64,000 nucleotides of DNA from Unio delphinus (Eukaryota > Mollusca > Bivalvia > Unionida > Unionidae): positions 2,193,501-2,257,500 of the forward strand of contig JAQISU010000345.1 of NCBI GenBank assembly GCA_029339505.1, in the 5' to 3' direction. The notes beneath the pieces were generated by a model, which did no database searches, had not been told where the DNA came from, and worked only from the letters and a program-made list of their open reading frames with translations. This document shows, piece after piece, positions 25,642-45,899 of this stretch (position 1 is its first letter; every line of letters begins with the position of its first letter). Made by a program: the position numbers and the translations under genes.

Positions 25642-26003
25642 AGTAGTAATATGGGGCACTATAGCGACAATGGAAAATCCAGTCAAAAAGTGCTTGGGGC
25701 ACTATGGCGACAAGATTTATAGCGACAAGGGAAAATCCAGTCAAAAACAGCTTGGGGCACTATAGCGACAAAACAGCTTGGGGTATTATAGCGACAAGGG
25801 AAATTGAACATAGTGGGCCTGTATAGCGACAAGGGAAATTGAACAGGGTGGGCCTGTATAGCGTCAAGGGAAATGGAACATAGTGGGTCTATATAGCGTC
25901 AAGGGAAATTGAACATGGCGGGTCTGTATAGGGACAAGGGAAAAAAGGGTGGCAATGAAAGCTACTATCTTTTCGAGACCTATGAGTGGCCCTGAAAAGG
26001 GCC
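25642..26003 (+). repeat. Left terminal inverted repeat, 362 bp
   Basis: It matches the reverse complement of 45884-46245. Inside are nine copies of a short motif, TATAGCGACAAGG and close variants (GCGTCA, GGGACA), spaced 20-40 bp. The inner edge at 26003 is exactly the edge of a histone-type stem-loop that serves the outward-facing gene at 26031. Confidence 0.95.
25988..26003 (-). terminator. Histone-type 3' stem-loop (minus strand)
   Basis: On the minus strand it reads GGCCCTTTTCAGGGCC: a 6-bp stem and TTTC loop, as in metazoan histone mRNA 3' ends. It is followed by ACTCA and, about 13 bases on, by CGAAAAGA, like the U7-pairing purine-rich element. It lies 28 bp after the stop of the gene at 26031. 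Confidence 0.75.
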
Positions 26004-26030
26004 GTTATGTGTAATGTTAACGTTGTCTTG

Positions 26031-26264
26031 TTAACACAGAGGACATCTCACAGATCTTCTTCTCTTCCTTAAACTTCTCCTTACTGTGGGTCCATAGAAG
26101 AGAACTCTCTTCAAGCAACCTTGTCTTTCCACATAGACTCTTCTCTTCCAATAGGCTGTCTCCGTCCTATGAATGACACTCCATGATGATCTGACATACA
26201 TGGGTATGTCAGTCCTAAACAGCATACTTGACACAAGGGTTGACGATTCAACATTAGTCCACAT
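26031..26264 (-). CDS. Small basic protein with 3' stem-loop, 77 aa
   Basis: ATG at 26262-26264, 77 residues, the leftmost gene of the Polinton and transcribed outward. It is basic toward the C-terminus (RRSLRKRRRSVRCPLC). No family recognised. Support for a real gene is its context: a TATAAATA box about 43 bp upstream on this strand (26307-26314) and a histone-type stem-loop just downstream. The divergent partner starts at 26483, so the region between is a two-way promoter. The Arg-rich tail could be a nuclear-localisation or nucleic-acid-binding signal. Confidence 0.5.
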   Translation of the reverse strand: MWTNVESSTLVSSMLFRTDIPMYVRSSWSVIHRTETAYWKRRVYVERQGCLKRVLFYGPTVRRSLRKRRRSVRCPLC

Positions 26265-26299
26265 CTTCTGATGAGAACAGGTGAATCGAATGCCGTGTA

Positions 26300-26440
26300 C
26301 TGCGGTTATTTATAGGGGAAGAGCGGATTGAAACGGATTGAGTGTATCCACCAATCCAAACGTGCGTTACAAAAGTCAGACACAGCCATCCAATCGGAAG
26401 AGAGCAGTCTGTGACGTCACCTTTTCTATATAGAGGTACT
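26300..26440. promoter_or_regulatory. Bidirectional promoter with CRE palindrome
   Basis: TATAAATA faces left (26307-26314, minus strand). TGACGTCA at 26412-26419 is followed by CTATATAGA at 26425-26433 facing right. The rightward gene starts about 50 bp downstream at 26483 and the leftward about 43 bp downstream at 26264. Confidence 0.55.
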
Positions 26441-26482
26441 AGCGCCTGTGCGCAGTCAATCGATTCAAGAGAGTTGTCAATC

Positions 26483-27133
26483 ATGGCGGACAGTAAGAAG
26501 ACAATGAATTGGAGTGAGACAGGAGTAGAGACAGCAAGTCATGGACCAACAGTGACTACTAAAGTCATGACAAATCTACATCCAGAAGAAGTTGATTTTA
26601 ACTGGGATATTGTGGATTTTTTAACATCGCAAGAATTTATTCCGGAACCTTCGTTGCCTTCTGTATCTTCTTATGGACACGTCGATGATTTTAAACAAAG
26701 ACAAAAAGAAGCATTGGAGCGATTTTTACAACAACAGAAAGTAGAAGAACAAGCTTTTCTTATGCAACAGCAGGAAGAAGAAGAAGCAAGAAGAAAACAC
26801 CAGGAAGAAACAGTAGCAGCAGCAGCAGCAACGGAGAAGAAGAATGAAGACCAAGGACAGAAAGAAAATAGTGAAAATCAAACGGTTACGACGGTACTTT
26901 TAGATATTTTAGCTGAGTTAAGGAGTCTGAAACAAATGTATCAGACTTCTTTATCACGGCCGAAGAGAAAAAGACCTTCTCGAGCGAAACAACCTGATCT
27001 CTCTGTGACTACGTCTACCTTACCACCGTTAGTGATTTCTACCAAATCATTGACAGGAACCACCAGTCCCGAAGTAGGCCTTGGCCGTGGCAAAGGCTTA
27101 AGACAGCTCAAGAGGATTTCATCCCGTTTCTGA
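26483..27133 (+). CDS. Coiled-coil protein with 3' stem-loop, 216 aa
   Basis: The ATG at 26483 (MADSKKTMNWSETG) is chosen because it follows the TATA box; the open frame begins earlier. Residues 75-130 form a Gln/Glu-rich coiled coil (RQKEALERFLQQQKVEEQ, QQQEEEEARRK). A second helix, LLDILAELRSLKQMY, is followed by KRKRPSRAK, a likely nuclear signal, and a Gly-Arg-rich end. No family recognised. The acidic N-terminus with a coiled coil and basic tail would suit a regulatory or nuclear phosphoprotein; that is inference. Followed 34 bp later by a histone-type stem-loop. Confidence 0.6.
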   Translation: MADSKKTMNWSETGVETASHGPTVTTKVMTNLHPEEVDFNWDIVDFLTSQEFIPEPSLPSVSSYGHVDDFKQRQKEALERFLQQQKVEEQAFLMQQQEEEEARRKHQEETVAAAAATEKKNEDQGQKENSENQTVTTVLLDILAELRSLKQMYQTSLSRPKRKRPSRAKQPDLSVTTSTLPPLVISTKSLTGTTSPEVGLGRGKGLRQLKRISSRF

Positions 27134-27166
27134 GTTTGTTTTGTTTTAAACACACAAAACACCAAC

Positions 27167-27182
27167 GGTCCTTTTCAGGACC
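27167..27182 (+). terminator. Histone-type 3' stem-loop with downstream element
   Basis: GGTCCTTTTCAGGACC: 6-bp stem, TTTC loop. 5' flank ACCAAC, 3' flank ACTCCAA. The purine run CGAAAAGAAATAC lies at 27196-27208, about 14 bases after the stem. The stem differs from the other copies by compensated base pairs (T-A replacing C-G), so pairing is kept. Confidence 0.75.
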
Positions 27183-27443
27183 ACTCCAATTATTTCGAAA
27201 AGAAATACTATGTCAATTGCCTATTTCAATGAAAACTCAAAAGTCCTTTATTTTTTTAAAAACCCATGATGTACGTGTGAGTGAATGAATGTGTGAGTGT
27301 AGGTAATTATACTATCAAATCAAAACCAAGAGACACTTACGTTTTTTCTCTTTAGTTTATTCTAGTACAAACGTCACAATTCAAAATCACAACATAACAT
27401 AACACAAGACCACTTTAAAAAAGTTCATAGGTTTTCTTCTGTT

Positions 27444-27890
27444 TCACTCTTTCTGTTTTTTCATTTTCTTTACTGTCACAGCTTTTTTTTCTTCCTCTTC
27501 ACTTTCGTTTCGTCTTCTTTTCTTGTGAACGTGACGGGGTTCTTCCTTGGGGGAGGGTACCTCTTCTTCCTCCTGTTCAGAATTTCTTTCCTCCTCCTCC
27601 TTCTCCTCCTCCTGTTCCTGTTGTTTCTTAGGGCAGTTTGGAGACCAATGTCCTTTCTCTTTACAATAATAACAGGTATCTTGACTTTTGTCTCTATTGT
27701 AGCCTTTTTTATTTTTGTCACGATCTGAACATTCTGTAGCCCAATGTCCTTTCTTCTTACAGATATAGCAAGTATCTTGACTTTTATCTCGATAGGAAGG
27801 AGAGTAGGCCGTCGGCTGGTCTGACGAAAACTTTCGTATGACCCCACGTAAAGCTCTAATGAGAAGTTCCACTTGTGTAGGTTCTTCCAT
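27444..27890 (-). CDS. Double CCHC zinc-knuckle protein, 148 aa
   Basis: The ATG at 27890 (MEEPTQVELLIRAL) lies about 55 bp after TATATATAAAG on this strand (about 27944-27954). Two zinc knuckles, CYICKKKGHWATEC and CYYCKEKGHWSPNC, are separated by about 20 residues and preceded each time by DKSQDT, so they arose by duplication. The rest is Glu-rich (EEEKEEEE) and then Lys/Arg-rich with KKRRRNE. Knuckles of this type bind single-stranded RNA or DNA. An AATAAA on this strand at 27356-27361 can end the transcript. Divergent from PolB. Not a standard Polinton gene. Confidence 0.7.
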   Translation of the reverse strand: MEEPTQVELLIRALRGVIRKFSSDQPTAYSPSYRDKSQDTCYICKKKGHWATECSDRDKNKKGYNRDKSQDTCYYCKEKGHWSPNCPKKQQEQEEEKEEEERNSEQEEEEVPSPKEEPRHVHKKRRRNESEEEEKKAVTVKKMKKQKE

Positions 27891-27939
27891 CGTTCTGGTC
27901 AATGTGAGAGTGAAAGGAATACTGAACCGTTAGACACTA

Positions 27940-27985
27940 ACCCTTTATATATATGCACGGATCGAACATGAATATATAGGGGTTA
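27940..27985. promoter_or_regulatory. Divergent TATA boxes for zinc-knuckle and PolB genes
   Basis: TTTATATATATG (27944-27955) serves the minus strand and GAATATATAGGGG (about 27969-27981) the plus strand. The start codons are 27890 and 28026. Confidence 0.5.
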
Positions 27986-28025
27986 TGGTCTTTAAAAGGT
28001 AGTCATTTGACTTTTTGCAGACAAG

Positions 28026-31000
28026 ATGAAAAGGCCACATCATGTTGTGGAGAAAAGAGAAAACAGTAAGAGACAGAAACGTAATGTATCGCCTAGCACA
28101 GTAGCTGAAGTCTTGGCTCAAATTCATGCCAGTGATTTTGAAGATGACATGAGTGAGCCCGAATCCACACCCAGACAATCCACGTCCAAGCAAAGTGCAC
28201 CACCCTTAGTAAACCCTGAAAATTACTATCACATTCGAGAGACAGAAAAGCGTTCCTCTCGAAAATTTAGAACAACGGCTTACACGTATGCCGTAAAGTT
28301 TAAAGATTTCAAGGCCAATGTACCTTTGGAGAATACAGAAGGGTTCATTACTGAGGTGTGGGATTCTGTATTAACTGCATTGAAACAGCAATGTCAAGCC
28401 AAAGAAGACGATCGCTTGAGACTTTCTATTCATCACGATAATTTAAAGTCTCCCGTTTGGATCGAGTTTACTAGCCCATCAGAATTAACACCTTCCAAAG
28501 TCATCGACAAAATTCAACATGTGCAACAATCCAACGACAAGTTTCACATTGACGATGGAAAAGCCACACTGTTTATGACCCACGTGTCTCTTCCCCAGGG
28601 GACAGGACGCAAAAAAGTATTATTGGTCGACAACCTTCGCAGCATGAAGCGAAGCCTCGTCCAAATTAACAATCCTCAAGACAAGATGTGTTTAGCCCGT
28701 GCTGTCGTCGTGGGACGAACGTATGTCAACAAGAACGACACGACAGAATGGAAAAGAGCCTGGAAAACTATTCAACGATCGGACCGAGCCAAACAACGAA
28801 GTGAAGCAGAACTTCTGTTACAGCAAGCGGGGATATCCAAAGACACCCTTAGCGGCATTCCAGAAATGCAAAAATTGCAAGACGTCTTGTCTCCACATTA
28901 CACTTTGAAAGTACACCCTCAAGAAGTGCGTGGACCTCTTTTGTTTCGAGGCCACGATTTCAAAGACGGAAAATACATTCACGTCTATCATCACGATGGT
29001 CATTTTGATACCATTACCAGTATCACTGGATTTCTGAAATTCAGTTACTACTGTGAAAAATGTGACTATGGTTATAACAATCGAGAACAACACAAGCATT
29101 GTGGATCGAAATGTGAGGGATGTTTGGCCTCTCAACCTTGTCTGGACCAAGGACAAGAAAGAGTGCATTGCCTTGTGTGTCAGCGCACTTTTGTCAGTCT
29201 TACCTGTTACCAACAACATTTGAAGATGCAAGGTTCACAGCAGAAAAGTGCTTGTCAACTGCTGAGATTGTGCCCTACTTGTGGCCAAGGCATACGTACT
29301 AGTAATGCCAAGTTTCACGTTTGTCGAGGGAAGAAACGATGTCACATTTGTCGCCAAATTGTGGACTTGGAGCACGAATGCTTCATTCAAAAATATCAAC
29401 CCCAACCAAAAGATACCCAGAAGAAAGGGAATTTTATCTTTTTTGATTTCGAATGCATGCAAGAGACCGGTATTCACATTCCCAATTTCTGCGTGGCTCA
29501 CCGTGCGTGCGAGCAGTGCATCCAAGAACCTATCTTTAGTCATTGCCCTTACTGCAGCAAGATTCCTGGAGGACGTGAAAAAATCTTTCGAGGGTCAAAT
29601 ACGCTAGCCGATTTTGCCCAATGGATCCTAAATCCCATCGACGAAACGTGGAGTCCAGAAGACATCGAACGTTACGGAGAGTGTCATCGCCATGCCACGG
29701 TCATGGCTCACAATTTCTCGGGATACGATGGGCAATTTCTGCTCAGATACTATGCGGAACAAAGTACCGAACGGCCTCAAGTGACTTTAAACGGAGTCAA
29801 AATCATTTCTATGCAAGTAGGACAAGTACAGTTTAAAGATTCGATGTGTTACTTGGCCATGCCATTAAGTCGCATGCCTAAAACGTTTGGAATGACAGAA
29901 ATGGCTAAAGGTTATTTTCCACACTTTTTTAATACCAAAGCCAATCAACATGCCGTTCTACCCCATTTGCCGGAGGCTGACGACTACGACCCCGACAACA
30001 TGCGCACCGAACAACGAGAAGCTTTCTATGCTTGGTACCAGACTCACGCCTCGGACCCTTTTGACTTTCAAGAAGAAATGTTAAAGTACTGTCGATCTGA
30101 CGTGGACATTTTACGACGTTGCTGTGGAAAATTTCGAGAATTGTTCATGGAATACGGAGGGATCGATCCTTTGAAAGAAGCTTGTACCATCGCCAAAGCG
30201 TGTTCCTTAGTGTACCGAAAACGCTTTATGCCTGAAAATACTCTAGCGGTCATCAGTCCTCAAACGACAAATTTTGTCAAACGTCAATACTCGGTCAAAG
30301 CCTTACGCTGGCTCCATTACTTGTGCGACAAGGAAGACAAATGGATCCAACACGCTCGCAACGGAGGAGGCGAAAAGACCATCGGAACGTATTCGGTAGA
30401 TGGTTGGGACTTAGAAAACCCTCAGATTGTGTACGAGTTTAACGGATGTTTATTTCACGGATGTCCCCTATGCTACCCTCAACGAGACACCAAAAATCAG
30501 TTTTTACAACGAACCATGGAAGACTTGTACCAGACCACGTGTCAGCGACGTTTGAAGTTAGAACAGCAAGGATACCAGGTGGTGGAAATGTGGGAACACG
30601 AGTACGATCAGCGTTTGAAAACTGATCCCGAGTTTAAACGCATCGTAGAAAGTTACAAGTGGGTGGACCCCCTGAACCCTCGGGATAGTTTGTACGGAGG
30701 ACGAACGAATGCTACTTGTTTGCTGTACCAAGCGGACGAGGAGAAGGGAGAAGAAATCAAATACTTGGACGTGTGTTCGTTGTATCCTTACGTGTGCAAA
30801 TATTGTCACTTTCCCGTAGGGCATCCAGAATTGATGACAGAACACATTGATTTGGACCACATTCGACAGTACGAAGGATTGATCAAGTGTAAAGTCTTAC
30901 CACCCACAGACTTGTACCATCCCGTATTACCTCACCATTGCCAAGGAAAACTGATGTTTCCTTTGTGTCGCACATGTGCCGAAACGTGCAACCAAGACCA

Positions 31001-32096
31001 ACCTTGTCATCACACTCAGGAAGAACGTGCCTTGACAGGAACGTGGGTGAGCGTGGAATTGTTTAAAGCTCTGGACCTGGGATATCAACTGTTAGAAGTG
31101 TACGAAATTTACCACTTTCCCAAAACACAACAATACTGCAAGGGCGACGAGAGACAGAAAGGTATTTTTGCAGACTACGTGGATGCTTTTTTAAAACTAA
31201 AACAAGAAGCTAGTGGCTATCCTTCCTGGTGTCACACTCCCGAAGACCAAAAGATATTCAAAGAAAAATATCGGGAGCAGGAAGGTATCACTTTAGACCA
31301 CATCGAGAAAAATGAAGGAAGGCGATCGTTTGCCAAAGTGATGCTCAATTGTTTGTGGGGTAAAATGGCACAACGTCCGTCTTTACCCAAGACGGAGTAT
31401 TTGTCCGAGCCGTCTCGCTACTTCCAGATGATTCACAACCCAACCAAAGTCATCAAACACGTGGACGTCATTCGTGAGGACTTGATCTTAGTCAATTACG
31501 AAGAAGAACTAGACTTTGTAGAAGCCGACACATTTGGAAATGTCATCATTGCGGCTTACGTGACAGCCCACGCTCGCTTAAAATTGTACGAAGTGTTAGA
31601 ACTGTTAGGAGATCGTGTGTTGTATTTTGACACGGACAGTTGCATTTACATTCACCGACCGAACCAGTGTAACCCTACCATCGAAGGAGACCGTTTAGGA
31701 GCCTGGACCGATGAACATCCCGACGACAAGATTCTATGTTTTGCAAGTGGCGGTCCTAAAAATTACGGCTACGAATACCGTGACCCACAAGGAAAAATGC
31801 ACACTGAATGTAAAGTGAAAGGATTGACTCTTAATTATCGCACCAGTCAAGTGGTGAACTTTGACGTGCTACAAGAAGCCTTGCAGTCGGGACAGGATGA
31901 AACGTTTCAAGTGACTACCCACGAACCGCACAAGATTGTCCGTTTACCCACACACCAAATTGTTAGCCGACCTTTGGAAAAAGTCTACCAAATCGTGTAC
32001 CAAAAGAGAGTACGACCTCCCAATCACTTCACTCTACCGTACGGTCACGTCGAAATTGGGCAGCATATAAAAAGGGACATTGTCCAAGACCAATAG
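28026..32096 (+). CDS. Protein-primed family B DNA polymerase
   Basis: 1,356 residues. N-terminal 320 residues unassigned, then a cysteine/histidine cluster (residues about 340-460: CEKCDYGY, CLVCQRTF, CPTCGQG, CHICRQIV) of several zinc fingers. The 3'-5' exonuclease motifs follow: FFDFEC (Asp about 474), HNFSGYDG (about 562) and YCRSDVD (Asp about 692). Polymerase motifs: A LDVCSLYPY (Asp about 915), B KVMLNCLWGK (Lys about 1104), C YFDTDS (Asp about 1202), then KVKGLTLNY. The enlarged region between exonuclease and motif A fits TPR-type inserts of protein-primed enzymes. It replicates the linear genome, priming from a terminal protein that I could not identify. The next gene's TATA lies inside its last codons. 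Confidence 0.95.
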   Translation: MKRPHHVVEKRENSKRQKRNVSPSTVAEVLAQIHASDFEDDMSEPESTPRQSTSKQSAPPLVNPENYYHIRETEKRSSRKFRTTAYTYAVKFKDFKANVPLENTEGFITEVWDSVLTALKQQCQAKEDDRLRLSIHHDNLKSPVWIEFTSPSELTPSKVIDKIQHVQQSNDKFHIDDGKATLFMTHVSLPQGTGRKKVLLVDNLRSMKRSLVQINNPQDKMCLARAVVVGRTYVNKNDTTEWKRAWKTIQRSDRAKQRSEAELLLQQAGISKDTLSGIPEMQKLQDVLSPHYTLKVHPQEVRGPLLFRGHDFKDGKYIHVYHHDGHFDTITSITGFLKFSYYCEKCDYGYNNREQHKHCGSKCEGCLASQPCLDQGQERVHCLVCQRTFVSLTCYQQHLKMQGSQQKSACQLLRLCPTCGQGIRTSNAKFHVCRGKKRCHICRQIVDLEHECFIQKYQPQPKDTQKKGNFIFFDFECMQETGIHIPNFCVAHRACEQCIQEPIFSHCPYCSKIPGGREKIFRGSNTLADFAQWILNPIDETWSPEDIERYGECHRHATVMAHNFSGYDGQFLLRYYAEQSTERPQVTLNGVKIISMQVGQVQFKDSMCYLAMPLSRMPKTFGMTEMAKGYFPHFFNTKANQHAVLPHLPEADDYDPDNMRTEQREAFYAWYQTHASDPFDFQEEMLKYCRSDVDILRRCCGKFRELFMEYGGIDPLKEACTIAKACSLVYRKRFMPENTLAVISPQTTNFVKRQYSVKALRWLHYLCDKEDKWIQHARNGGGEKTIGTYSVDGWDLENPQIVYEFNGCLFHGCPLCYPQRDTKNQFLQRTMEDLYQTTCQRRLKLEQQGYQVVEMWEHEYDQRLKTDPEFKRIVESYKWVDPLNPRDSLYGGRTNATCLLYQADEEKGEEIKYLDVCSLYPYVCKYCHFPVGHPELMTEHIDLDHIRQYEGLIKCKVLPPTDLYHPVLPHHCQGKLMFPLCRTCAETCNQDQPCHHTQEERALTGTWVSVELFKALDLGYQLLEVYEIYHFPKTQQYCKGDERQKGIFADYVDAFLKLKQEASGYPSWCHTPEDQKIFKEKYREQEGITLDHIEKNEGRRSFAKVMLNCLWGKMAQRPSLPKTEYLSEPSRYFQMIHNPTKVIKHVDVIREDLILVNYEEELDFVEADTFGNVIIAAYVTAHARLKLYEVLELLGDRVLYFDTDSCIYIHRPNQCNPTIEGDRLGAWTDEHPDDKILCFASGGPKNYGYEYRDPQGKMHTECKVKGLTLNYRTSQVVNFDVLQEALQSGQDETFQVTTHEPHKIVRLPTHQIVSRPLEKVYQIVYQKRVRPPNHFTLPYGHVEIGQHIKRDIVQDQ
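32063..32074 (+). promoter_or_regulatory. TATA box inside the PolB 3' end
   Basis: GCATATAAAAAGGG begins about 32063, 60-65 bp before the BIR gene ATG at 32131 and 30 bp before the PolB stop. Confidence 0.45.
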
Positions 32097-32130
32097 TTCA
32101 TTGTGACTAACACAGCCAAGCGAAAAGAAG

Positions 32131-32679
32131 ATGAATCCATTTAAACAGACATCATTCAAATTTGGGAATTCTCAAGTGGAGTGCGATGCTAAACCTTACG
32201 ATTGTAGTGATGCCAGGCGCTGTGACATTAGCGATTCAGCAGGATATCGTGGGAACTTTGCTATGACTACTACCCCTATATCTACCCTGGAAAGTGATGC
32301 TGTGCGTGTCAAACCTGAGGGATGCGAAAGCGGTGCGACACGTTATCGTGGACTCCTAGGAATTTCACCGTACCTGCATCGAACAGAAGTGAGGAGAGTC
32401 GAATATTCGTTCCCGACGAGTTTGCCTGAATACTGTCACTTTAAAAGTCGATTCCAAACCTTCAAAGATAAATGGCCAAAATATCTGCCTGGACCAACTC
32501 CTGAAGAATTAGCCAGAGCTGGATTTTTCTACTTGGGCGAAGGAGATAAAGTCAAGTGTTTCAGTTGTGGTGTATCCATTTACGAGTGGGAAGAGAAAGA
32601 TTCCGCTTACTTGGAACATGCTCGATGGTCTCCGAATTGTCAATACCTACCTTTAGTAGGACCTAGTGATTGGAAGTGA
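32131..32679 (+). CDS. BIR-domain protein (IAP-like)
   Basis: 182 residues. The C-terminal 80 form one BIR domain: FKSRFQTFKDKWPK, then LARAGFFYLGEGDKVKCFSCGVSIYEWEE, then YLEHARWSPNC, giving the C-x2-C-x(n)-H-x6-C zinc site. There is no RING finger after it. BIR proteins bind caspases or their activators, and similar ones occur in baculoviruses and adintoviruses, where they block cell death; for this protein that role is inferred. The first 90 residues (Ser/Thr/Asp-rich) match nothing I know. It follows PolB by 34 bp. Confidence 0.85.
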   Translation: MNPFKQTSFKFGNSQVECDAKPYDCSDARRCDISDSAGYRGNFAMTTTPISTLESDAVRVKPEGCESGATRYRGLLGISPYLHRTEVRRVEYSFPTSLPEYCHFKSRFQTFKDKWPKYLPGPTPEELARAGFFYLGEGDKVKCFSCGVSIYEWEEKDSAYLEHARWSPNCQYLPLVGPSDWK

Positions 32680-32691
32680 CACTACTGCTCC

Positions 32692-33078: not shown

Positions 33079-33118
33079 TAGTCTTCGACCTAAAAAAGAA
33101 GTATAAAAGAGAACGACC

Positions 33119-33337: not shown

Positions 33338-33343
33338 GACAGT

Positions 33344-33941: not shown

Positions 33942-34017
33942 ACGTGTCTTGAAAAAAGTATAAAAACCTCTTGTCTTGTCTGTTTTTGTGTCAATACTGA
34001 CATACCACTACACGACT

Positions 34018-34749: not shown

Positions 34750-34818
34750 CACTATGAAGCACTAAAAAAATCTATAAAAACCTTGGGTTACTTTAACCTG
34801 GTCTCATACATCGTCAAC

Positions 34819-36840: not shown

Positions 36841-36877
36841 CAATATGTATGATCCTTCCAGAAGATAAAAGGGATCC

Positions 36878-37609: not shown

Positions 37610-37617
37610 CCTAAACC

Positions 37618-38730: not shown

Positions 38731-38735
38731 CCATC

Positions 38736-39155
38736 ATGCCCTTCAATACAGCTTCAGCGACCACAGTGACTACTCCTTCACCCACATCATCTCTGCAAGA
38801 TTTACAAAAGCAACCCTTGTGGGTGTGGTGTGGAGAACGTGTCCCTAAAACCCAAATCGTCTTTTTCTGTCAAATCTTTGTGGTGTATTGTGTCATCGGT
38901 GCAGCCATTGCTAATTTGAGTTTGCAACAAGGAGACAAACAATTGTGGACCATTTTACTCAGCAGTTGCATCGGATATCTTCTTCCCAATCCTTCCCTGA
39001 AATACTCTTACAACGGGAACAACAATAACACTATTGGGAGCCTTGCGTCCAACGTTAGTCCTTCTCCTGGCAGTCACCCTTCCAATCACAATCCTCTTTT
39101 AGATACTCCTTTAACCTCGAGTGACTCCTCGGACAGAACAACATTGGAATTATGA
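38736..39155 (+). CDS. Conserved small membrane protein, two TM segments, 139 aa
   Basis: ATG 38736; a GTG three codons earlier is less likely. A pair of membrane segments is separated by a short charged loop: QIFVVYCVIGAAIANLSL and LWTILLSSCIGYLLPNPSLK. The LWxxLLSSCxGYLLPNPSLK ending is a pattern I recall in many animal Polintons. The C-terminus is Ser/Asn-rich and likely exposed. It overlaps the minor capsid gene by 4 bp (39152-39155). A TATAAAAAG box lies just before the start. Confidence 0.6.
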   Translation: MPFNTASATTVTTPSPTSSLQDLQKQPLWVWCGERVPKTQIVFFCQIFVVYCVIGAAIANLSLQQGDKQLWTILLSSCIGYLLPNPSLKYSYNGNNNNTIGSLASNVSPSPGSHPSNHNPLLDTPLTSSDSSDRTTLEL

Positions 39156-40093
39156 ACAACACTATTAACCAATTTTACTTAACGTTACCCAGTGACAGTT
39201 CCATGGAGGTGTTTCCTAACAACACGTTGTGCTGTTACACGGCTAAATTACCTCAAACCATGCATTTGGATCAAGATGATCATTGGGAAGTAGCTTTAGT
39301 GGAAATAATACACCCGACACAAATAAAAAACATCGTCGAAAATCAAAACACTTTTACAGTAGAAGTGTTTGACGAGCAATTGCAAAAGGCCTTAGACGCA
39401 CGAGGTAAAGGTGGCGAAAAGAAATCAGATGGACCCCCAACTAAAGCCCTGTCCACTCATAAGTTCGTCATTCCTCCAGGTTATTATTTTAGTGGTCAAC
39501 ATTTAGTGACTACGATTGTAACCAGGTTCAATGTTGTGTTTGGTAAAGCCATGGAGTCCCTTGCATCCACAAAAACCCCAAAAAGTGTGACCATTGAGTA
39601 CTATTCAGTGTCTCGTCGACTCATGATGACATTTTTAGAGGAGAAAATGATGGCCATTACTTTTTGTCCTGAATTGTTTGATATTTTAGGTGGAGACGTC
39701 GAGATGCTCAAGAACAAAAAGCAAATACCAGGCATAACCAGTAACTCGGATTTTGCAAAATATTTTCGATTCCCTATTGAATTGAACCAAGGTCTCAACT
39801 TGATGTTTGTGTACTCCGATGTGGCAGAGTACAACGTGGTAGGACACACCTCTGCACCGTTACTACGTGTCATTCCTTTCAAAGTGGATTCTGCCACTAG
39901 CGTTAAAGAAGAAGGTGGAAATACCAATCACGTTCACCGTGAATTTGTACATCCTCATTATTTACCCGTCAGTAAGTCGTATTTCGACAGTGTCAACATT
40001 TCTATAAAAGGAGAACTAGGACAAAATATTCCATTTACCAAAGGAAAAGTCACAGTGAAACTCCATTTTCAAAAACGATTCTCCAACAACTGA
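39152..40093 (+). CDS. Minor capsid protein (penton-like)
   Basis: 313 residues. The N-terminus, FYLTLPSDSSMEVFPNNTLCCYTAKLPQ then DHWEVALVEIIHP, is the hallmark opening of Polinton minor capsid proteins, which adopt a single jelly roll and sit at capsid vertices. No membrane segments. It precedes the major capsid gene by one small gene, the usual order. The start is set by the 4-bp overlap ATGA with the gene before. Confidence 0.85.
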   Translation: MNNTINQFYLTLPSDSSMEVFPNNTLCCYTAKLPQTMHLDQDDHWEVALVEIIHPTQIKNIVENQNTFTVEVFDEQLQKALDARGKGGEKKSDGPPTKALSTHKFVIPPGYYFSGQHLVTTIVTRFNVVFGKAMESLASTKTPKSVTIEYYSVSRRLMMTFLEEKMMAITFCPELFDILGGDVEMLKNKKQIPGITSNSDFAKYFRFPIELNQGLNLMFVYSDVAEYNVVGHTSAPLLRVIPFKVDSATSVKEEGGNTNHVHREFVHPHYLPVSKSYFDSVNISIKGELGQNIPFTKGKVTVKLHFQKRFSNN

Positions 40094-40100
40094 AAAAGTG

Positions 40101-40541
40101 ATGTATCCTGTGTACCGAGGAGTCACTCGACAACGAGGACATGGTTTAGGAGATATGTTTAAATCAGCCTTTCGTTCTGTGGTCCCTGTTTTGAAACCGA
40201 TGGTGACACGAGGATTGCACGCCTTAAAAGATGCCGCATTGACTCACGGCAAAGATTTTCTTCACAATGTTCTCATTGACAAACAAAACCCTAAAGAAGC
40301 TTTTTTGAGAGCAGGCAAAAATGTCTTGCTTCAAACGGGTAAAGAGATTTTGGGTCGACGAGAAAGTCCTATAAATGCCCTGAACGGTACCGAGTCTGAC
40401 ATTCCTGCTTCCCTGACGACACAGCAAGGACAAGGTAGAAAGCGACGACGAAGGCACCCTTTCAAAAGTCTCCGTGCCTCTAAAGTGAGAAAGACGAAGA
40501 AAAAAAGAACCGCTCGAGACTTAGACATTTTTGATTATTAA
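40101..40541 (+). CDS. Small virion protein, pVI-like, 146 aa
   Basis: ATG 40101 (a preceding GTG is not needed). MYPVYRGVTRQRGHGLGDMF then FRSVVPVLKPMVTRGLHALK: a Gly-x-Gly N-terminal stretch and an amphipathic helix, like adenovirus pVI and the element A gene at 1772. The C-terminus is very basic (RKRRRRHPFKSLRASK) and ends DIFDY. A capsid-to-genome connector or membrane-lytic role is likely by analogy. Eight bases after the minor capsid gene. Confidence 0.6.
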   Translation: MYPVYRGVTRQRGHGLGDMFKSAFRSVVPVLKPMVTRGLHALKDAALTHGKDFLHNVLIDKQNPKEAFLRAGKNVLLQTGKEILGRRESPINALNGTESDIPASLTTQQGQGRKRRRRHPFKSLRASKVRKTKKKRTARDLDIFDY

Positions 40542-40568
40542 AAGTGAAGAAAAAAACATAAAGAAAAA

Positions 40569-41936
40569 ATGATGCACCAAGAATCTTGTGCCTGTTCCAA
40601 GTCGGAACTAGATCTCTTTGCCATGCCACCCACGATGATGACCATGCAAGAAGCCCAATGGGTCGAATTTCATCCCGTCTCCTCTTTGACGGATTCAGCT
40701 CCCATCGAGTTTGAAATCAAAGGACAACCCGAAGATTACATCGATCTCAACAACAGTTACTTGTATTTGAAAGTGAAAGTAACCAAAACGGACGGCAACG
40801 CTCCAGGAGCCGATACCCAATCAGCTCCCGTCAACAATTTCATGCATTCCTTGTTCAGCGAAGTGGATTTGTACATGAATAACAAACTGGTCAGCAGTAG
40901 CACGGATACTTACCCTTACCGAGCGTACATAGAAAATCTCTTGACGTACGGAAAAGAAGCCAAAAACACTCATTTAGATGCTTGCGTGGTATGGAAACCT
41001 GACACAGCAAATAAATTTATCGACACAGCCTTGACCGAAGTAGATAATGATGACAATGTTACCAATCCTCACAATGTGGGTTTTAACGAGCGTCAAAAGA
41101 AAATTCTGCAAGGACGTAGTTTAGAACTGTGCGATCGTTTGCATTTGGACATGTGGTTTCAAGAGAAGTATTTGCTAAACGGAGTAGATATTCGCTTGAG
41201 ACTGAATCGTAGCAGTGCTGCTTTCCATTTGATGGCTACTGAAACTGTTGCTGCTCCTACTACTCACCACTGTAAAACCAAGATCGAAGAAGCCAGATTA
41301 TACGTGCGTCGTGTGGAAGTGTTACCTAAAGTGGGAAATGACATCAGTCACACTTTGAGCAGAACGACAGCCAAGTATCCGATACGACGCGTGGAAGTCA
41401 AAACTTTCACCATTGCCGCTGGACTCCGATCTAAGATCGAAGATCATCTGTTCCAAGGACAGTTACCCAAACGTTTATTCATCGGTATCGTCAGCAATGC
41501 AGCCTTCAACGGTGCCTACACTCAAAATCCTTTCGAGTTTAAGCACTACAATGTATCCAAAATCGAAGTCAGTCGCGATGGCAAAACTTTGTGTACCAGA
41601 CCTTTCGAACCCAACTTTGCCCAGAAGAATTACTTGAGGTCGTACTTGTCGCTGTACGAAGCCACAGGACAGTTAGGAACCAACACCAGTCACGGTATTT
41701 CCTACGACGATTATGCAGGAGGTTACGCTTTGTGGGGTTTTGATTTCACTCCAGACCAAGGCAGTGACGAGGGACATTTTCACCCTATAAAATCAGGACA
41801 ACTGCGTGTGGAACTTCAGTTTGCAGCAACAGCAGATCACCCATCTCTTCCCCATACAGTAAATGTCATTCTGTATGCCGAATTCGATAATACCATAGAA
41901 ATCAACAGTTTGAGAGAAGTCATTCTAGACTATTAG
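40569..41936 (+). CDS. Major capsid protein, double jelly roll
   Basis: 455 residues, ATG 40569. Characteristic early segments are PIEFEIKGQPEDYIDLNNSYLYLKVKV and NNFMHSLFSEVDLYMNNKLVS, then YPYRAYIENLLTYG, and at about residue 180 GFNERQKKIL with LCDRLHLDMWFQEKYLLNGVDIRLRL. These are standard Polinton major capsid signatures, with two jelly-roll domains forming pseudo-hexagonal trimers. A complete gene, flanked by minor capsid, small virion protein and protease genes. Confidence 0.93.
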   Translation: MMHQESCACSKSELDLFAMPPTMMTMQEAQWVEFHPVSSLTDSAPIEFEIKGQPEDYIDLNNSYLYLKVKVTKTDGNAPGADTQSAPVNNFMHSLFSEVDLYMNNKLVSSSTDTYPYRAYIENLLTYGKEAKNTHLDACVVWKPDTANKFIDTALTEVDNDDNVTNPHNVGFNERQKKILQGRSLELCDRLHLDMWFQEKYLLNGVDIRLRLNRSSAAFHLMATETVAAPTTHHCKTKIEEARLYVRRVEVLPKVGNDISHTLSRTTAKYPIRRVEVKTFTIAAGLRSKIEDHLFQGQLPKRLFIGIVSNAAFNGAYTQNPFEFKHYNVSKIEVSRDGKTLCTRPFEPNFAQKNYLRSYLSLYEATGQLGTNTSHGISYDDYAGGYALWGFDFTPDQGSDEGHFHPIKSGQLRVELQFAATADHPSLPHTVNVILYAEFDNTIEINSLREVILDY

Positions 41937-41941
41937 ACACT

Positions 41942-42439
41942 ATGGAAGACCCTTGTCCTTCTTTGAATAGTGGAGAATCCATGGAATGGGAGGTTACAGA
42001 GAAAGCAGTTCCCGAAGACCAAAAAGAAGAAGTAGTGATCATGCAATTCAGATGGCCAGAACAGGAACAACAGTTAGTGGCTTGTTTTGCACAACACTTG
42101 GAAGATAAAATGAGAGACATGATTAAAAAAGATTGTTATGGATGTCAAATCGATCATCCCAGTCAAATTCAACACGATAAATGTATGATGATGAGTCAAG
42201 AAGAAAAATTGGATGATTATCTGAACGAAGCTTGGAGTCTCATTTCAGAAGAAGCCGTGTTACTTCAGTGGTATAAAGGCTTACGTGATCATTCCTCTCC
42301 TCCATTGTTTGCTCGAGAAATTGATCGCATCGAAGCTCTCTTGGCCCAGAGTAAAGAGACGAAGCAAACCATCAGTTACTTGTCAGACCGTTTCAAACAA
42401 AAAGTCTGGATTGAATTGATGACTTATCATCACCTGTGA
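41942..42439 (+). CDS. Conserved Polinton protein with GC-x-HPSQ-x-H motif, 165 aa
   Basis: ATG 41942, five bases after the capsid stop. The middle holds DCYGCQIDHPSQIQHDKCM, a Cys/His set (C-x2-C...H...H..C) that could bind zinc, a motif I recall in many Polintons between capsid and protease. The rest is acidic and helical. Function unknown. Confidence 0.6.
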   Translation: MEDPCPSLNSGESMEWEVTEKAVPEDQKEEVVIMQFRWPEQEQQLVACFAQHLEDKMRDMIKKDCYGCQIDHPSQIQHDKCMMMSQEEKLDDYLNEAWSLISEEAVLLQWYKGLRDHSSPPLFAREIDRIEALLAQSKETKQTISYLSDRFKQKVWIELMTYHHL

Positions 42440-42476
42440 AGAAAGGGGAAAAAAAAATAAGGCTACACAACAAAAA

Positions 42477-43034
42477 ATGGATACCTGGGAACTTTATTAT
42501 CTTTTGAACCGTAGTTCGTACACTGCTTCTTGGAATCCTGTCGTGTGTGCTAAAGATGAACTACCTCATCGCAAACCTCAAGAGAATCAAGCTTATGTCA
42601 TCAACACAGATGACAGTCATCTTCCAGGAACTCACTGGGTAGCTGTCTACTTTCCTCAAGAGGGATGTGCGGAGTATTTTGATTCGTATGGATTACCCCC
42701 TTTCGAAGATGATATCATTGACTTTGTGAGAAGAAATGCCCAGACGACACGATTCAATAATGTGAAATTACAAAGCACAGATTCTATGGTGTGTGGACAA
42801 TATTGTGTCTATTATCTGCATCATCGCAGTCTTGGATATTCTTTAGAACATTTAGTGACTTATTTTGATCGTCATTCGTCTCGAAACGATGACAAAGTAG
42901 ATCGATGGTTTTGTGACCATTATGGCTATCTGTTGTCTTTAGCTAGGAAACGTAGTGTACATCAATGGCCCAATGATTTCCATCAGTGGAAATCTCAATT
43001 TAATTCACAAGGTTGTCAACCATGTCAAAGATAA
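42477..43034 (+). CDS. Adenain-like cysteine protease
   Basis: 185 residues. Triad and oxyanion residues in order: His in GTHWVAVYF (about residue 60), Asp or Glu in EYFDSYGLPP (about 71-80), Gln in KLQSTD (about 102), Cys in SMVCGQYCVYYL (about 108). This matches the adenovirus protease/Ulp1 fold used for virion maturation. The start follows an A-rich leader. An AATAAA at about 43131 may end this transcript. Confidence 0.9.
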   Translation: MDTWELYYLLNRSSYTASWNPVVCAKDELPHRKPQENQAYVINTDDSHLPGTHWVAVYFPQEGCAEYFDSYGLPPFEDDIIDFVRRNAQTTRFNNVKLQSTDSMVCGQYCVYYLHHRSLGYSLEHLVTYFDRHSSRNDDKVDRWFCDHYGYLLSLARKRSVHQWPNDFHQWKSQFNSQGCQPCQR

Positions 43035-43061
43035 TGTATTAGAGTTATAGAAGAAAAACAT

Positions 43062-43140
43062 GTTTGTTCTTTGAAAAAATGTTTGTTCTTTGAAATAATG
43101 TTTGTTCTTTGAAATAATGTTTGTTATTTGAATAAAAATG
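43062..43140 (+). repeat. Short tandem repeat after the protease gene
   Basis: About four copies of a 19-21 bp unit, ATGTTTGTTCTTTGAAATA, ending in TGAATAAAAATG. It includes the likely polyadenylation signal. Confidence 0.75.
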
Positions 43141-43264
43141 TTGTGTTTTGAAAACCAATGCGTCTGTCGTTTGTTTTACATTTGTACTCATATAAATGCT
43201 CTTTGACTTTTCTTTCTATCCCTCACATCAAACTATCTAAACGTTTCAAAACCCTAAACCGCAG

Positions 43265-43312
43265 AGGGGTGTTTTCCATCACGTCCGCGCTTGAACCATA
43301 TAAAGCAGGGGT
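43265..43312 (+). promoter_or_regulatory. Shared promoter, copy 1
   Basis: GGGGTGTTTTCCATCACGTC directly followed by CGCGCTTG, then CATATAAAG at about 43298. Transcription would start near CAGTCTGG (about 43320). The same block recurs at 44043 and, diverged, at 45207. Confidence 0.65.
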
Positions 43313-43358
43313 AGTCTCCAGTCTGGCCATCCATTGTTTGACTCACCCTACTACGAAG

Positions 43359-43718
43359 ATGTGCTCAAGACTAGCTAAGCTGAACGAAGCTTATGTCACT
43401 CTGCATCGTATCAGACACAATCTGATGCCAAAGCCTGAAGAGATTGAGAATGTAAGAATGCTACAAGTAACGGAAGACCTCATAGAAGAACTCTTCAGAG
43501 AGGAAATTCAAAAAGAGAAAGAAGAATGGACTGAGAAGTATCGACTTCAAAAGCAGCAGAGGGAGCAGAGAGAACAGCATCAGCAACAGCAACAACATCA
43601 GCAGGAACCAGACAGAAGTTTTGTCGACTGTCGTGTGGACACGAAAGAGTTCTCTTTCTCTTTCCGAAGAAGCAGACCCTATCGTGTAGCCAAACGAGGA
43701 CGCAATCTTAGACGATAA
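43359..43718 (+). CDS. Helical protein with 3' stem-loop, 119 aa
   Basis: ATG 43359 (MCSRLAKLNEAYVTLHRI), chosen as the first ATG after the shared promoter; the frame is open upstream through the promoter itself. N-terminal helices are followed by a Gln-rich coiled coil (QREQREQHQQQQQHQQ) and a basic end (RPYRVAKRGRNLRR). No family recognised. The opening 'LxKLxEAxxxLxxxR' resembles in kind that of the next gene (MNRVQKLRELQMHLENARRL), so the two may be paralogues. Stem-loop 41 bp after the stop. Confidence 0.55.
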   Translation: MCSRLAKLNEAYVTLHRIRHNLMPKPEEIENVRMLQVTEDLIEELFREEIQKEKEEWTEKYRLQKQQREQREQHQQQQQHQQEPDRSFVDCRVDTKEFSFSFRRSRPYRVAKRGRNLRR

Positions 43719-43759
43719 AAGATTGTCATCCTTCCTCGTACACACAAACACAAAAAAAC

Positions 43760-43775
43760 AGCCCTTTTCAGGGCT
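43760..43775 (+). terminator. Histone-type 3' stem-loop
   Basis: AGCCCTTTTCAGGGCT with 3' flank ACCCA, the canonical histone flank, and CGAAAAGAATTA at 43788-43799. Loop TTTC. Confidence 0.75.
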
Positions 43776-43799
43776 ACCCAATATTCTCGAAAAGAATTA

Positions 43800-44042
43800 A
43801 TCATTCAATTTGCTTATGGTATGTGAGGAAGTTAGAAAAAAATTAGAAGTGAGTCTATAATCACTATCTCATTTTACTTTTGTTTTGAAGTGCGTCTATA
43901 AACACAGCGTATTTTTTTCAAAATAACTTGTTCAATTTATAATTAATAGGAGTCAAGTATAAAAGTGTGGGGTGTTTTCTTTTAAATCCGCGTGTTTTGT
44001 TTTTTTGGTAATGATAGGGATAATGTAAGTTTTTGGATCTAG
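43800..44042. other. Gap with a degraded promoter copy
   Basis: AAGTATAAAAGTGTGGGGTG at about 43957-43976 and TGTTTTCTTTTAAATCCGCG at 43974-43993 resemble the shared promoter block. No gene follows before the next full promoter. Confidence 0.4.
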
Positions 44043-44115
44043 GGGGTGTTTTCCATCACGTCCGCGCTTGTGCTATATATAAAAAAGCACTCGTCAGTCT
44101 GGCTACCTATCGTTG
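44043..44115 (+). promoter_or_regulatory. Shared promoter, copy 2
   Basis: GGGGTGTTTTCCATCACGTC then CGCGCTTG, identical to copy 1 over about 28 bases, followed by CTATATATAAAAA (44073-44085) and TCAGTCTGGC at about 44095. Confidence 0.65.
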
Positions 44116-44129
44116 GCGCATCAAAGAAG

Positions 44130-44594
44130 ATGAATAGAGTACAGAAATTAAGAGAACTTCAAATGCATCTGGAGAATGCTAGACGTCTCCTGGACGAACT
44201 GGCAATGGAGGCCGAAGAAGAAGAGATCAGAGTTAAAGAAGAGGAGGAGAGGAAAAAGAAAGAAGAGGAGAAGGAAATGAAAAGGTCAATTTTGCCTCAC
44301 CGCATGATGAGGCAAACTAGTGAAGTCAAGCCTATAGTGAGGACACCTTCACCAGAACCAGTTCGTTCACTACAGGCGCAGCCCCCACTGCCTCAGCCGC
44401 AACAACCACAGACTCATCCACGGTTGCGGAATAGAGGCAGAAATGAAGAGACTTTCACTATCCCTCAAACAGAAGATTGGGATAGTGAAGCCACTCATTC
44501 TCCCTCTGCGCTCCCAATCACAAGAGTGAATTGGGAGAATGATTGGAGTAGGAGATGTGTGTGTGGGGCTAGACCTGGGAGATGTCAGCATTAG
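44130..44594 (+). CDS. Coiled-coil, Pro-rich protein with 3' stem-loop, 154 aa
   Basis: ATG 44130 (MNRVQKLRELQMHLENARRL). Residues 1-55 form an acidic coiled coil (EEEEIRVKEEEERKKKEEEK). Pro/Gln-rich middle (QPPLPQPQQPQ), then a Cys-rich end RRCVCGARPGRCQH. No family recognised. The disordered middle with a Cys tail would suit an adaptor or regulator. The stem-loop lies 27 bp after the stop. Confidence 0.55.
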   Translation: MNRVQKLRELQMHLENARRLLDELAMEAEEEEIRVKEEEERKKKEEEKEMKRSILPHRMMRQTSEVKPIVRTPSPEPVRSLQAQPPLPQPQQPQTHPRLRNRGRNEETFTIPQTEDWDSEATHSPSALPITRVNWENDWSRRCVCGARPGRCQH

Positions 44595-44621
44595 CCAGGT
44601 GTAATTTGAAGTTTTAAAAAC

Positions 44622-44637
44622 AGCCCTTCTCAGGGCT
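44622..44637 (+). terminator. Histone-type 3' stem-loop, loop variant
   Basis: AGCCCTTCTCAGGGCT: stem as in the copy at 43760, loop TCTC in place of TTTC. 3' flank ACCCA. The purine element is AACAAGAAAAGAAATAC (44647-44663), close to the sea-urchin histone CAAGAAAGA type. Confidence 0.7.
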
Positions 44638-44724
44638 ACCCAAATAACAAGAAAAGAAATACTATGTCAATTGCCAATGGGTGTGAGAGAGGAGTAGTGT
44701 GATTATAAACACTGACTCTATTTA

Positions 44725-45165
44725 GATGGTATATGGTGTAATTTTGGATAGTATATAGTATGGTGTGTTTTGGCTGCTTCCCCGTGTGTGTGGTTAGTAT
44801 AGGGTGTGATTTTGGATAGTATATAGTATGGTTTGTTTTGGCTGCTACCCCGTGTGTGTGGTTAGTATAGGGTGTGATTTTGGATAGTATATAGTATGGT
44901 GTGTTTTGGCTGCTTCCCCGTGTGTGTGGTTAGTATAGGGTGTGATTTTGGATAGTATATAGTATGGTGTGTTTTGGCTGCTTCCCCGTGTGTGTGGTTA
45001 GTATAGGGTGTGATTTTGGATAGTATATAGTATGGTTTGTTTTGGCTGCTTCCCCGTGTGTGTGGTTAGTATAGGGTGTGATTTTGGATAGTATATAGTA
45101 TGGTGTGTTTTGGCTGCTTCCCCGTGTGTGTGGTTAGTATAGGGTGTGATTTTGGATAGTATATA
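44725..45165 (+). repeat. 68-bp tandem repeat, about 6.4 copies
   Basis: The unit contains GTGTGATTTTGGATAGTATA, GTATGGTGTGTTTTGGCTGC and CCCGTGTGTGTGGTTAGTAT. The period of 68 is exact between copies at 44761, 44829 and 44897. It lies between two stem-loop gene cassettes. Copies differ by single bases. No coding capacity. Confidence 0.95.
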
Positions 45166-45206
45166 ATAGGATTTGTGAATAGTATCTAATATGACAAGTG
45201 AATGTA

Positions 45207-45275
45207 GAGGTGTTTACTTTCACGTCCGTGCTTAAGATATATATACGCAATCGTCGGTCCTTGGAGCCATTCAAT
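45207..45275 (+). promoter_or_regulatory. Shared promoter, diverged copy 3
   Basis: AGGTGTTTACTTTCACGTCC then GTGCTTAAG and ATATATATACG at about 45237-45247, followed by TCGGTCCTTGG where the others have TCAGTCTGG. Confidence 0.55.
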
Positions 45276-45290
45276 TTTGAACACATCAAG

Positions 45291-45863
45291 ATGAATTTTG
45301 AATTGTTTATCCAACTCCGAGACAGCTGGTTTGGGATCCTTGATGCAGAATATCAAGTGGAAAGACTTGAGGAAGAATTTCAGAGTAACCATGGCTTTGT
45401 AAGCCAACTGAAATTAGCAAGAGATTTATTAGAAGGTATGATAGAGGAGGAAGACCAGAAATTAAGAAGACGTATTAAAAGAAAATATATAAGAATAGGG
45501 GACTTGAAGCAAGCACTTGATCATGTCATCAAAGTCAGGTGTTTTCTAGAAGAAACATTACATCTGATAGAGTGGGAATATGTGAAGTGGGGTCTAGACA
45601 GGCTAAAGAAAGCAGAAGCAATGATGAGAATGGTGATGGAAGAACAGGTGATCCAGATTAAAGAAAACTGGTCTAAGGAGAGAAAGGAAAAAAAGAACAA
45701 AAAGACGAAAGAGGACTTTGATCTACTCAATCTAAGATGGATGAGAGTTCAGGAAAAGTTTAGAGCTATGGGACATCCTGACTGGATTCCCGAAGAAGAA
45801 AAGAAGAAAAAAACAGGAATCATTGGTAAAATCAAAAGGTGGTGGAACAATGGCAGAAAATAA
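45291..45863 (+). CDS. Helical, Lys-rich protein with 3' stem-loop, 190 aa
   Basis: ATG 45291 (MNFELFIQLRDSWFGILDAE), after promoter copy 3. Long charged helices occupy nearly the whole length (RLEEEFQSNHGFVSQLKLAR, ERKEKKNKKTKEDFD). It ends with an amphipathic basic tail, GIIGKIKRWWNNGRK, a possible membrane-binding or nucleic-acid-binding end. No family recognised. It is the rightmost gene; its stop is 20 bp from the stem-loop that forms the inner edge of the right terminal repeat. Confidence 0.55.
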   Translation: MNFELFIQLRDSWFGILDAEYQVERLEEEFQSNHGFVSQLKLARDLLEGMIEEEDQKLRRRIKRKYIRIGDLKQALDHVIKVRCFLEETLHLIEWEYVKWGLDRLKKAEAMMRMVMEEQVIQIKENWSKERKEKKNKKTKEDFDLLNLRWMRVQEKFRAMGHPDWIPEEEKKKKTGIIGKIKRWWNNGRK

Positions 45864-45883
45864 AAGAAGAAGAAGTATCCAAA

Positions 45884-45899
45884 GGCCCTTTTCAGGGCC
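45884..45899 (+). terminator. Histone-type 3' stem-loop at the TIR edge
   Basis: GGCCCTTTTCAGGGCC with 5' flank CCAAA and 3' flank ACTCA, nearly the metazoan histone consensus, and CGAAAAGATAG at 45912-45922. Confidence 0.78.

Follow-up and report, generated by a model that had tools for sequence, protein, structure and literature searches.

We describe here an intact Polinton in the genome of the bivalve Unio delphinus (Mollusca, Unionidae; assembly GCA_029339505.1), whose five small terminal genes are likely to carry genuine histone-type mRNA 3′ ends, probably linking their expression to S phase. The element, 20.6 kb long, occupies positions 25642-46245 of a 64,000-nt stretch of contig JAQISU010000345.1 (positions 2,193,501 to 2,257,500 of the forward strand), which we call the window and from whose first letter all positions are counted. 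The basis for this reading lies in the sequence elements themselves, in their spacing, in their recurrence in related elements and in their likeness to the histone signals of the host. Ends of this type are regarded as nearly private to replication-dependent histone genes. The feature is genuine and hardly described in the literature searched; both of its ingredients are of known kinds, and it is their joint use by a Polinton that appears to be new. If the reading is true, a mobile relative of DNA viruses that uses histone ends for a class of its genes would show selfish DNA sensing and using S phase by a route that is new, and its transcripts would be a second natural set of substrates for the stem-loop binding protein (SLBP) and the U7 small nuclear RNA (snRNA).

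Probable histone-type 3′ ends of the terminal genes

Five hairpins stand where an initial annotation of this DNA had placed them, shortly 3′ of the stop codon of a small gene, at distances of 20-41 nt (20-45 in that annotation). They are listed below with their genes, which are named hereafter by start position, with their matches to RF00032, the Rfam covariance model of the histone 3′ stem-loop, and with the purine elements, located by sequence and alignment.

26031-26264, minus strand: hairpin gene, 77 amino acids (aa), isoelectric point 11.3, TATAAAT 50 nt upstream of the ATG; diverged copies at 55-88% aa identity
25988-26003, minus strand: stem-loop GGCCCT-TTTC-AGGGCC, after gene 26031-26264; RF00032 match at 25964, 32.5 bits, exact pattern
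25968-25975, minus strand: purine element CGAAAAGA
26483-27133, plus strand: hairpin gene, 216 aa, conserved NWDxVDFL..SQEF motif and KRKRPSRAKQ stretch; 19 protein-database relatives, 16 of them aligned with the window
27167-27182, plus strand: stem-loop GGTCCT-TTTC-AGGACC; RF00032 match at 27162, 35.3 bits
27196-27203, plus strand: purine element CGAAAAGA
43361-43718, plus strand: hairpin gene, 119 aa from the ATG past the TATA box (longest open reading frame (ORF) from 43158)
43760-43775, plus strand: stem-loop AGCCCT-TTTC-AGGGCT; RF00032 match at 43755, 34.9 bits
43788-43795, plus strand: purine element CGAAAAGA
44130-44594, plus strand: hairpin gene, 154 aa; diverged copies in the genome
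44622-44637, plus strand: stem-loop AGCCCT-TCTC-AGGGCT; RF00032 match at 44617, 33.2 bits
44650-44657, plus strand: purine element AGAAAAGA
45291-45863, plus strand: hairpin gene, 190 aa, all-helical model with a mean pLDDT of 73.7; 7 relatives
45884-45899, plus strand: stem-loop GGCCCT-TTTC-AGGGCC; RF00032 match at 45879, 34.9 bits; kept in 20/20 sampled young copies
45912-45919, plus strand: purine element CGAAAAGA

The covariance model bears the annotation out, since it matches all five places, three of them over its gathering threshold of 34 bits and two slightly under it (by 0.8-1.5 bits), and at E ≤ 0.5 it finds nothing else in the 64-kb window. The pattern RGYYCTTYTCAGRRCYACYC has five exact matches in the window, where 0.00 are expected from 100 dinucleotide shuffles; with up to three mismatches there are again five, against 0.23 expected. 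All the hairpins have a 6-bp stem with G-C as the second pair and U-A as the top pair, a 4-nt loop with U at positions 1 and 3, and an ACYC 3′ flank, which are the features that define a histone stem-loop. The purine element (CGAAAAGA in four cases and AGAAAAGA once) follows all five at histone spacing; its presence had been correctly noted, but it starts 12-13 nt past the stem and not 13-17. Likewise, the five places stand but only four hairpins are independent, because 25988 (minus) and 45884 (plus) duplicate one sequence present in both terminal inverted repeats (TIRs). These two hairpins face outward, each behind its own gene, at the inner edge of the TIR. The TCTC loop of the 44622 hairpin is common to 9 of 11 diverged copies.

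Since two of the five hairpins delimit the TIRs on their inner side, one could think of functions at the DNA level, such as the start of replication or contacts with integrase or terminal protein, instead of RNA processing. We regard this as extremely improbable: the other three hairpins lie inside the element, each of the five has the orientation of the gene that precedes it, and the bases of loop and flank fit an RNA-protein signal.

The histone genes of the host provide the closest comparison. In a stretch of histone array on contig C15 (locus L052), H2A, H1, H3, H4 and H2B all have a like hairpin and a GAAAAGA-type element, and the stem of H1 (GGTCCT/AGGACC) is the stem of window hairpin 27167. 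The proposed likeness to animal histone 3′ ends is found within the species itself: its histone genes share both stem-loop and purine element at equal spacing. The compensated stem pairs reported earlier were recovered as well: in the four window hairpins taken together with six host histone hairpins, 100% of the cells are paired and 4 cells are changed on both sides, a number reached by 0/500 shuffles. Among 71 oriented hairpins, GAAAAGA lies exactly 13 nt on in 46, and six are without a purine match. As for the host machinery, the RNA-binding domain of SLBP was found on contig C166 as two adjacent matches, which cover profile positions 1-32 (with one internal stop) and 29-70.

A hairpin rule has been described for the transcript ends of giant-virus genes, and the hairpins of the Polinton stand directly past the stops of compact virus-like genes, one of which has an AATAAA beside its hairpin. 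They might then be transcription-end or polyadenylation signals of the element's own, resembling those of histones only superficially. This explanation is very unlikely in view of the base-specific histone features that are retained (a G-C second pair, a U-A top pair, a UYUN loop, 5′ AA, 3′ ACYC, a purine element at 12-13 nt), of the similar host histone genes, and of RF00032 matches that fall behind these five genes only.

Recurrence, covariation and promoters across the host genome

The initial annotation would have taken absence of the hairpins from related Polintons as evidence against its idea; they are present, recurring in diverged copies in the host genome, which comprises 1,246 contigs and 2.5 Gb. 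RF00032 has at least 74 matches genome-wide, 69 of them over the cut-off, and this count is a lower bound, with 75 of 434,796 first-look candidates scored. We took 68 loci with 69 of the 74 matches, leaving out four further matches of the C15 array and C169:2932045. As many as 64 of the 68 are relatives of the window Polinton, many with a neighbouring hairpin gene beside the RF00032 match: 60 match a window hairpin-gene protein at E ≤ 1e-4, and four match the TIR only, over at least 311 nt. The remaining loci are two histone genes (L052, L059) and two unclear cases (L015, L057). Most of the scored histone-type hairpins in this genome belong to the family of the window Polinton, whose proteins are 35-93% identical to those of the window in the best alignments, some of which are short.

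Because these loci had themselves been chosen by a hairpin, we turned to the ends of their remaining hairpin genes and applied a strict rule. The hairpin is kept in 6/11 copies of gene 26483 and in 7/11 copies of gene 44130, whereas a control stretch upstream contains it in 0/22 for these two genes and in 0/25 when gene 43361 is included. The nine misses comprise five recognisable damaged hairpins, three copies with unrelated-looking sequence at that place (L013, L018, L022) and one copy (L071) that enters a simple repeat. For gene 45291, 20 young copies were sampled from the 150 best-scoring copies of its protein; hairpin and purine element are present in all of them, ten having one C-G changed to U-G. 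These best 150 of 4,335 candidate copies are 99-100% identical (105 at 100%) and without stops, and the expansion of this Polinton family is very large and recent. At L048, L066 and L074 there are seemingly chimeric genes, in which parts of 43361-like and 45291-like proteins precede one hairpin.

A protein from another record hints at a histone-type 3′ end there too. This relative of the 26483 protein (P0144) extends beyond the usual end, and its tail looks like a hairpin with its purine element in translation: at the best offset, 71 of 96 codon positions (74%) fit the 3′ flank of the window, compared with at most 65% in 300 shuffles.

Covariation was assessed in 22 distinct Polinton hairpins: four from the window, six behind gene 26483, 11 behind gene 44130 (damaged ones included) and one young variant. 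The set excludes five hairpin-less copies of 26483, as well as those TIR copies that RF00032 had selected. In this set, 92.4% of the cells are paired, against 86.9% in shuffles, and there are 11 double changes, against 4.9; either value was reached by 0/500 shuffles, and sliding the pairing partner drops pairing to 9-61%. Mean identity to the window was then compared along unselected copies. For gene 26483 it amounts to 0.71 in the stem-loop and 0.67 in the preceding untranslated region (UTR), and falls to 0.60 past the purine element and to 0.46 beyond that; for gene 44130, to 0.91 in the stem-loop, 0.86 in the coding tail, 0.80 in the UTR before and 0.68 after the purine element. Selective constraint on the stem-loop is suggested by these values, not proved, because its identity exceeds that of the near flanks but not that of every flank.

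A finding that the initial annotation did not have makes the case stronger: in three of the five genes, the TATA box is preceded by a promoter motif that is also found in the histone array of the host. The TATA boxes lie 50-62 nt ahead of the ATGs. The promoter features are:

43263-43290, plus strand: promoter motif AGAGGGGTGTTTTCCATCACGTCCGCGC of gene 43361, 26/28 identical to host H1
44044-44067, plus strand: promoter motif GGGTGTTTTCCATCACGTCCGCGC of gene 44130, 23/24 identical to host H1
45209-45231, plus strand: promoter motif GGTGTTTACTTTCACGTCCGTGC of gene 45291, 18/23 identical to host H1
26265-26482, no strand assigned: divergent promoter region with palindromic TGACGTCA, two CCAAT and one TATA box facing each gene; histone-array motif absent

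The motifs of these right-end genes score 23, 21.5 and 13; in 60 shuffles the highest score is 13.0 and the mean 10.4, and 16 other genes of the element reach at most 10.5. In the host, H1 and H2B are preceded by the motif GTTTTCAATCACGTCCGC, and H2A has it in inverted orientation about 180 nt upstream; it is repeated along C15, and its positions on C200 are similarly spaced. Copies with at least 15 of the 23 motif positions number 11/35 for gene 45291 and 1/3 for gene 43361, and the same test within the coding sequence of right-end genes gives 0/38. The motif appears to resemble the HINFP (HiNF-P) site, and HINFP might be its reader, a role for which a literature search gave no support. If the motif is confirmed, this would be a mobile element that copies histone gene control at the 5′ as well as the 3′ end.

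The form GTGTTTTCNATCACGTCCGCGC has 2,475 exact matches genome-wide and its reversed control none; at about two sites per copy, this number suggests that there are probably over a thousand Polinton copies. The histone form GTTTTCAATCACGTCCGC occurs at 549 places (control 0), and 30 of the 100 listed are on C15 and C200. Twenty of the other 70 listed places correspond to 5 Polinton copies, 14 members of one dispersed repeat family and 1 that is neither. Those members with the exact motif are L113-L115, L118, L119, L121-L125, L127 and L130-L132, and no hairpin or histone match was found within the 701 bases taken per place.

Weighing the evidence and a possible mechanism

A number of observations speak against genuine histone-type ends. 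By the strict rule, the hairpin is found in 0/3 copies of gene 43361, and three related copies (L013, L018, L022) have a different sequence past the 26483 stop. When stem pairs with a double change are counted instead of cells, the 22 Polinton hairpins are not unusual (3 against 2.0 in shuffles; 90/500), and the window and histone set is equally ordinary (2 against 0.7; 70/500). The coding tail of the 26483 set, at 0.80, is more conserved than the stem-loop at 0.71, and in the 44130 set the sequence further downstream (0.89) is about as conserved as the stem-loop (0.91), so that conservation is not sharply peaked. Regarding the promoters, the weakest window motif, with its score of 13, equals the shuffle maximum; the left-end gene pair is without the histone-array motif, both in the window (scores 8.5 and 9.0) and in its copies (0/13 and 0/13); and the motif reaches 15 of 23 positions in just 12/38 right-end copies, while 4/38 have one of 50 shuffles reaching 15. 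Nor is GTTTTCAATCACGTCCGC exclusive to histone genes, because the dispersed repeat family, which has internal repeats, shares it. The U7 snRNA of the host was not identified by RF00066 or by pattern, a result that does not show absence, as the Rfam search found none in control genomes either; the pattern occurs at 19 places (reversed-pattern control, 42), and none of the 18 inspected has a U7-like 3′ hairpin. Finally, an AATAAA at 45859 overlaps the stop codon of gene 45291.

Some of these points would also suit a relic, where a single capture of a histone 3′ end (and promoter) was followed by its duplication along with the genes, and it has no present function. The 3′ flanks and promoters resemble those of host H1 and H2B, and conservation is not sharply centred on the hairpin. 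Nevertheless, the family has been very active recently, as seen in the near-identical best 150 copies and in the thousands of exact promoter matches, and its signals have therefore been in use recently; moreover, hairpins persist in copies with 35-93% protein identity, and their stems show compensated changes. We thus find a functionless relic highly improbable.

The AATAAA of gene 45291 raises another alternative, in which the hairpins do bind SLBP and the mRNAs are also, or alternatively, polyadenylated, the signal serving less for 3′ cutting than for export, translation or localisation. Invertebrate histone genes with both stem-loop and poly(A) signals are known. This is unlikely, given a purine element at histone spacing in all five cases and the four of five hairpin genes that have neither AATAAA nor ATTAAA within 400 nt. 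The complementary claim, that the other genes use AATAAA, turned out to be weak: within 400 nt past the stop, AATAAA occurs in 5 of 20 other ORFs and ATTAAA in 3 more, with neither in 12. The convergent neighbour gene at 27444-27890 (minus strand) has an AATAAA 82 nt past its stop. At the sequence level, a contrast between hairpin genes and poly(A)-signal genes is only partly visible.

Returning to genuine histone-type ends as the favoured explanation, we infer the following path from the signals described. Host SLBP would bind the stem-loop of the terminal-gene pre-mRNAs, and the histone pre-mRNA processing machinery, through U7, would cut at the purine element, yielding short intronless mRNAs that end in the stem-loop and not in poly(A). 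The three right-end genes would start from a histone-type promoter. In this way the terminal genes, probably early or regulatory ones, would be made alongside histone mRNAs in S phase, when host conditions would suit the element's own DNA replication, and the capsid and replication genes would use other signals. Given the great abundance and recent activity of the element, host total RNA offers a direct test of the prediction.

A farther-reaching and more tentative version, which we consider possible, is that the Polinton took complete host histone-gene control cassettes, made up of an H1/H2B-type promoter motif, a TATA box, an intronless gene, the stem-loop and the purine element. Its terminal genes could then be treated in transcription and processing like “histone genes”, in S phase only and possibly within the histone locus body. 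If so, the element may supply more SLBP sites than the host histone genes do, and compete for the processing machinery.

Known systems and the Polinton in its setting

The terminal genes share with replication-dependent animal histone genes their short length, a 16-nt stem-loop 20-41 nt past the stop, an ACYC-like flank, GAAAAGA about 13 nt on and, at three Polinton genes, the same promoter motif. They differ in that they sit in a mobile element and that their proteins are not histones, as judged from four scanned genes: a Pfam scan of the four plus-strand hairpin genes gave no match above cut-off and no histone among the matches. The 45291 protein has 7 protein-database relatives (47-99% identical in alignment). 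The nearest database relatives of this and the 26483 protein may come from the same species as the window. A structure model of the 45291 protein found no match in the PDB at E ≤ 0.001, and its sequence profile gave a single match, with E 0.72.

Adenovirus early mRNAs are spliced and polyadenylated, and early regulatory genes lie at the genome ends. The Polinton resembles this arrangement of fast-evolving regulatory genes at both ends of a replication and capsid core; its terminal genes, unlike those early regions, are intronless frames with histone hairpins.

The element also agrees with animal Polintons/Mavericks and adintoviruses in its PolB, its rve integrase with chromodomain, packaging ATPase, major capsid protein (MCP), weak adenain-like protease, TIRs and 6-bp target-site duplication, and differs from them by its histone-type 3′ ends, which are not described there in the literature searched. 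Among the listed results of a search of the open literature, none deals with such ends in an animal Polinton, an adintovirus or a transposon. The initial annotation, which knew of no description in Polintons, holds for animal ones to that extent; more broadly it needs qualification, since six histone 3′ UTR stem-loops have been counted among 8,300 genomes of Polinton-like viruses and virophages, without further comment in the section concerned (PMC12220804). That section gives no gene, host, promoter or function for the stem-loops of these protist viruses, whereas in the animal element a whole gene class has histone-type ends. In Lucina pectinata, the stem-loop is reported in histone mRNAs, with purine elements nearby in only some (PMC6210712). 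Histone-like proteins, which have been reported in other animal viruses, are a different matter (PMC11071296).

We also scanned IMG/VR with the MCP, PolB, integrase and hairpin-gene proteins or alignments and with hairpin patterns, and no Polinton relative was found there. Two hairpin-pattern matches, L001 (with phage-type genes) and L006 (a contig with transfer-messenger RNA), were rejected, as neither matches RF00032 at E ≤ 1. Polinton-type fragments occur in four bacterial metagenome-assembled genomes (L002-L005: an Escarpia laminata endosymbiont, Thiodubiliella of Bathymodiolus, Breoghania and Rickettsiaceae), and they are probably host contamination in these records. They contain MCP relatives at 26-43% identity and consist of core or partial fragments only. 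RF00032 has no match in them at E ≤ 1, which does not bear on the idea, because the core of the window element is also without hairpins. At L003:11734-11798 there is a type-P1 twister ribozyme match below threshold (28.9 bits, E 0.034; gathering threshold 67.2).

The boundaries of the window element are:

25642-46245, plus strand: Polinton element, from 99% complementary TIRs, target-site duplication, Pfam matches and MCP relatives
25642-26006, minus strand: left TIR, inner edge at the hairpin, from repeat-pair comparison
45881-46245, plus strand: right TIR, starting 3 nt 5′ of the hairpin, from repeat-pair comparison

The TIRs are 99% complementary (repeat pair 25635-26006 / 45881-46252), and a perfect 6-bp target-site duplication, CGCGTG, lies at 25636-25641 and 46246-46251. 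A Pfam scan identifies PolB (PF03175, 2.1e-42), the rve integrase (PF00665, 2.1e-12) with its chromodomain (PF00385, 1.2e-7) and the packaging ATPase (PF04665, 5.3e-7); the match to the adenain-like (adenovirus-type) protease is weak and below cut-off (PF00770, 0.031). The MCP has 1740 relatives in the protein database at E ≤ 0.001, and the animal-named ones among 120 listed are from clams and oysters. PolB and integrase, capsid and packaging genes, long TIRs and the 6-bp duplication together place the element among the Polintons.

Pieces of a second, different Polinton family are found at 254-12344 and 61731-64000 of the window, as inverted copies on both sides; they include a double-jelly-roll MCP, an ATPase and an integrase just under the cut-off, and RF00032 has no match in them at E ≤ 0.5. 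Within the first element, a protein with a BIR (inhibitor-of-apoptosis) domain is encoded at 32131-32679 (PF00653, E 4.3e-24). A 68-bp minisatellite lies between two of the hairpin genes, at 44661-45272, and both TIRs contain 35-bp tandem repeats.

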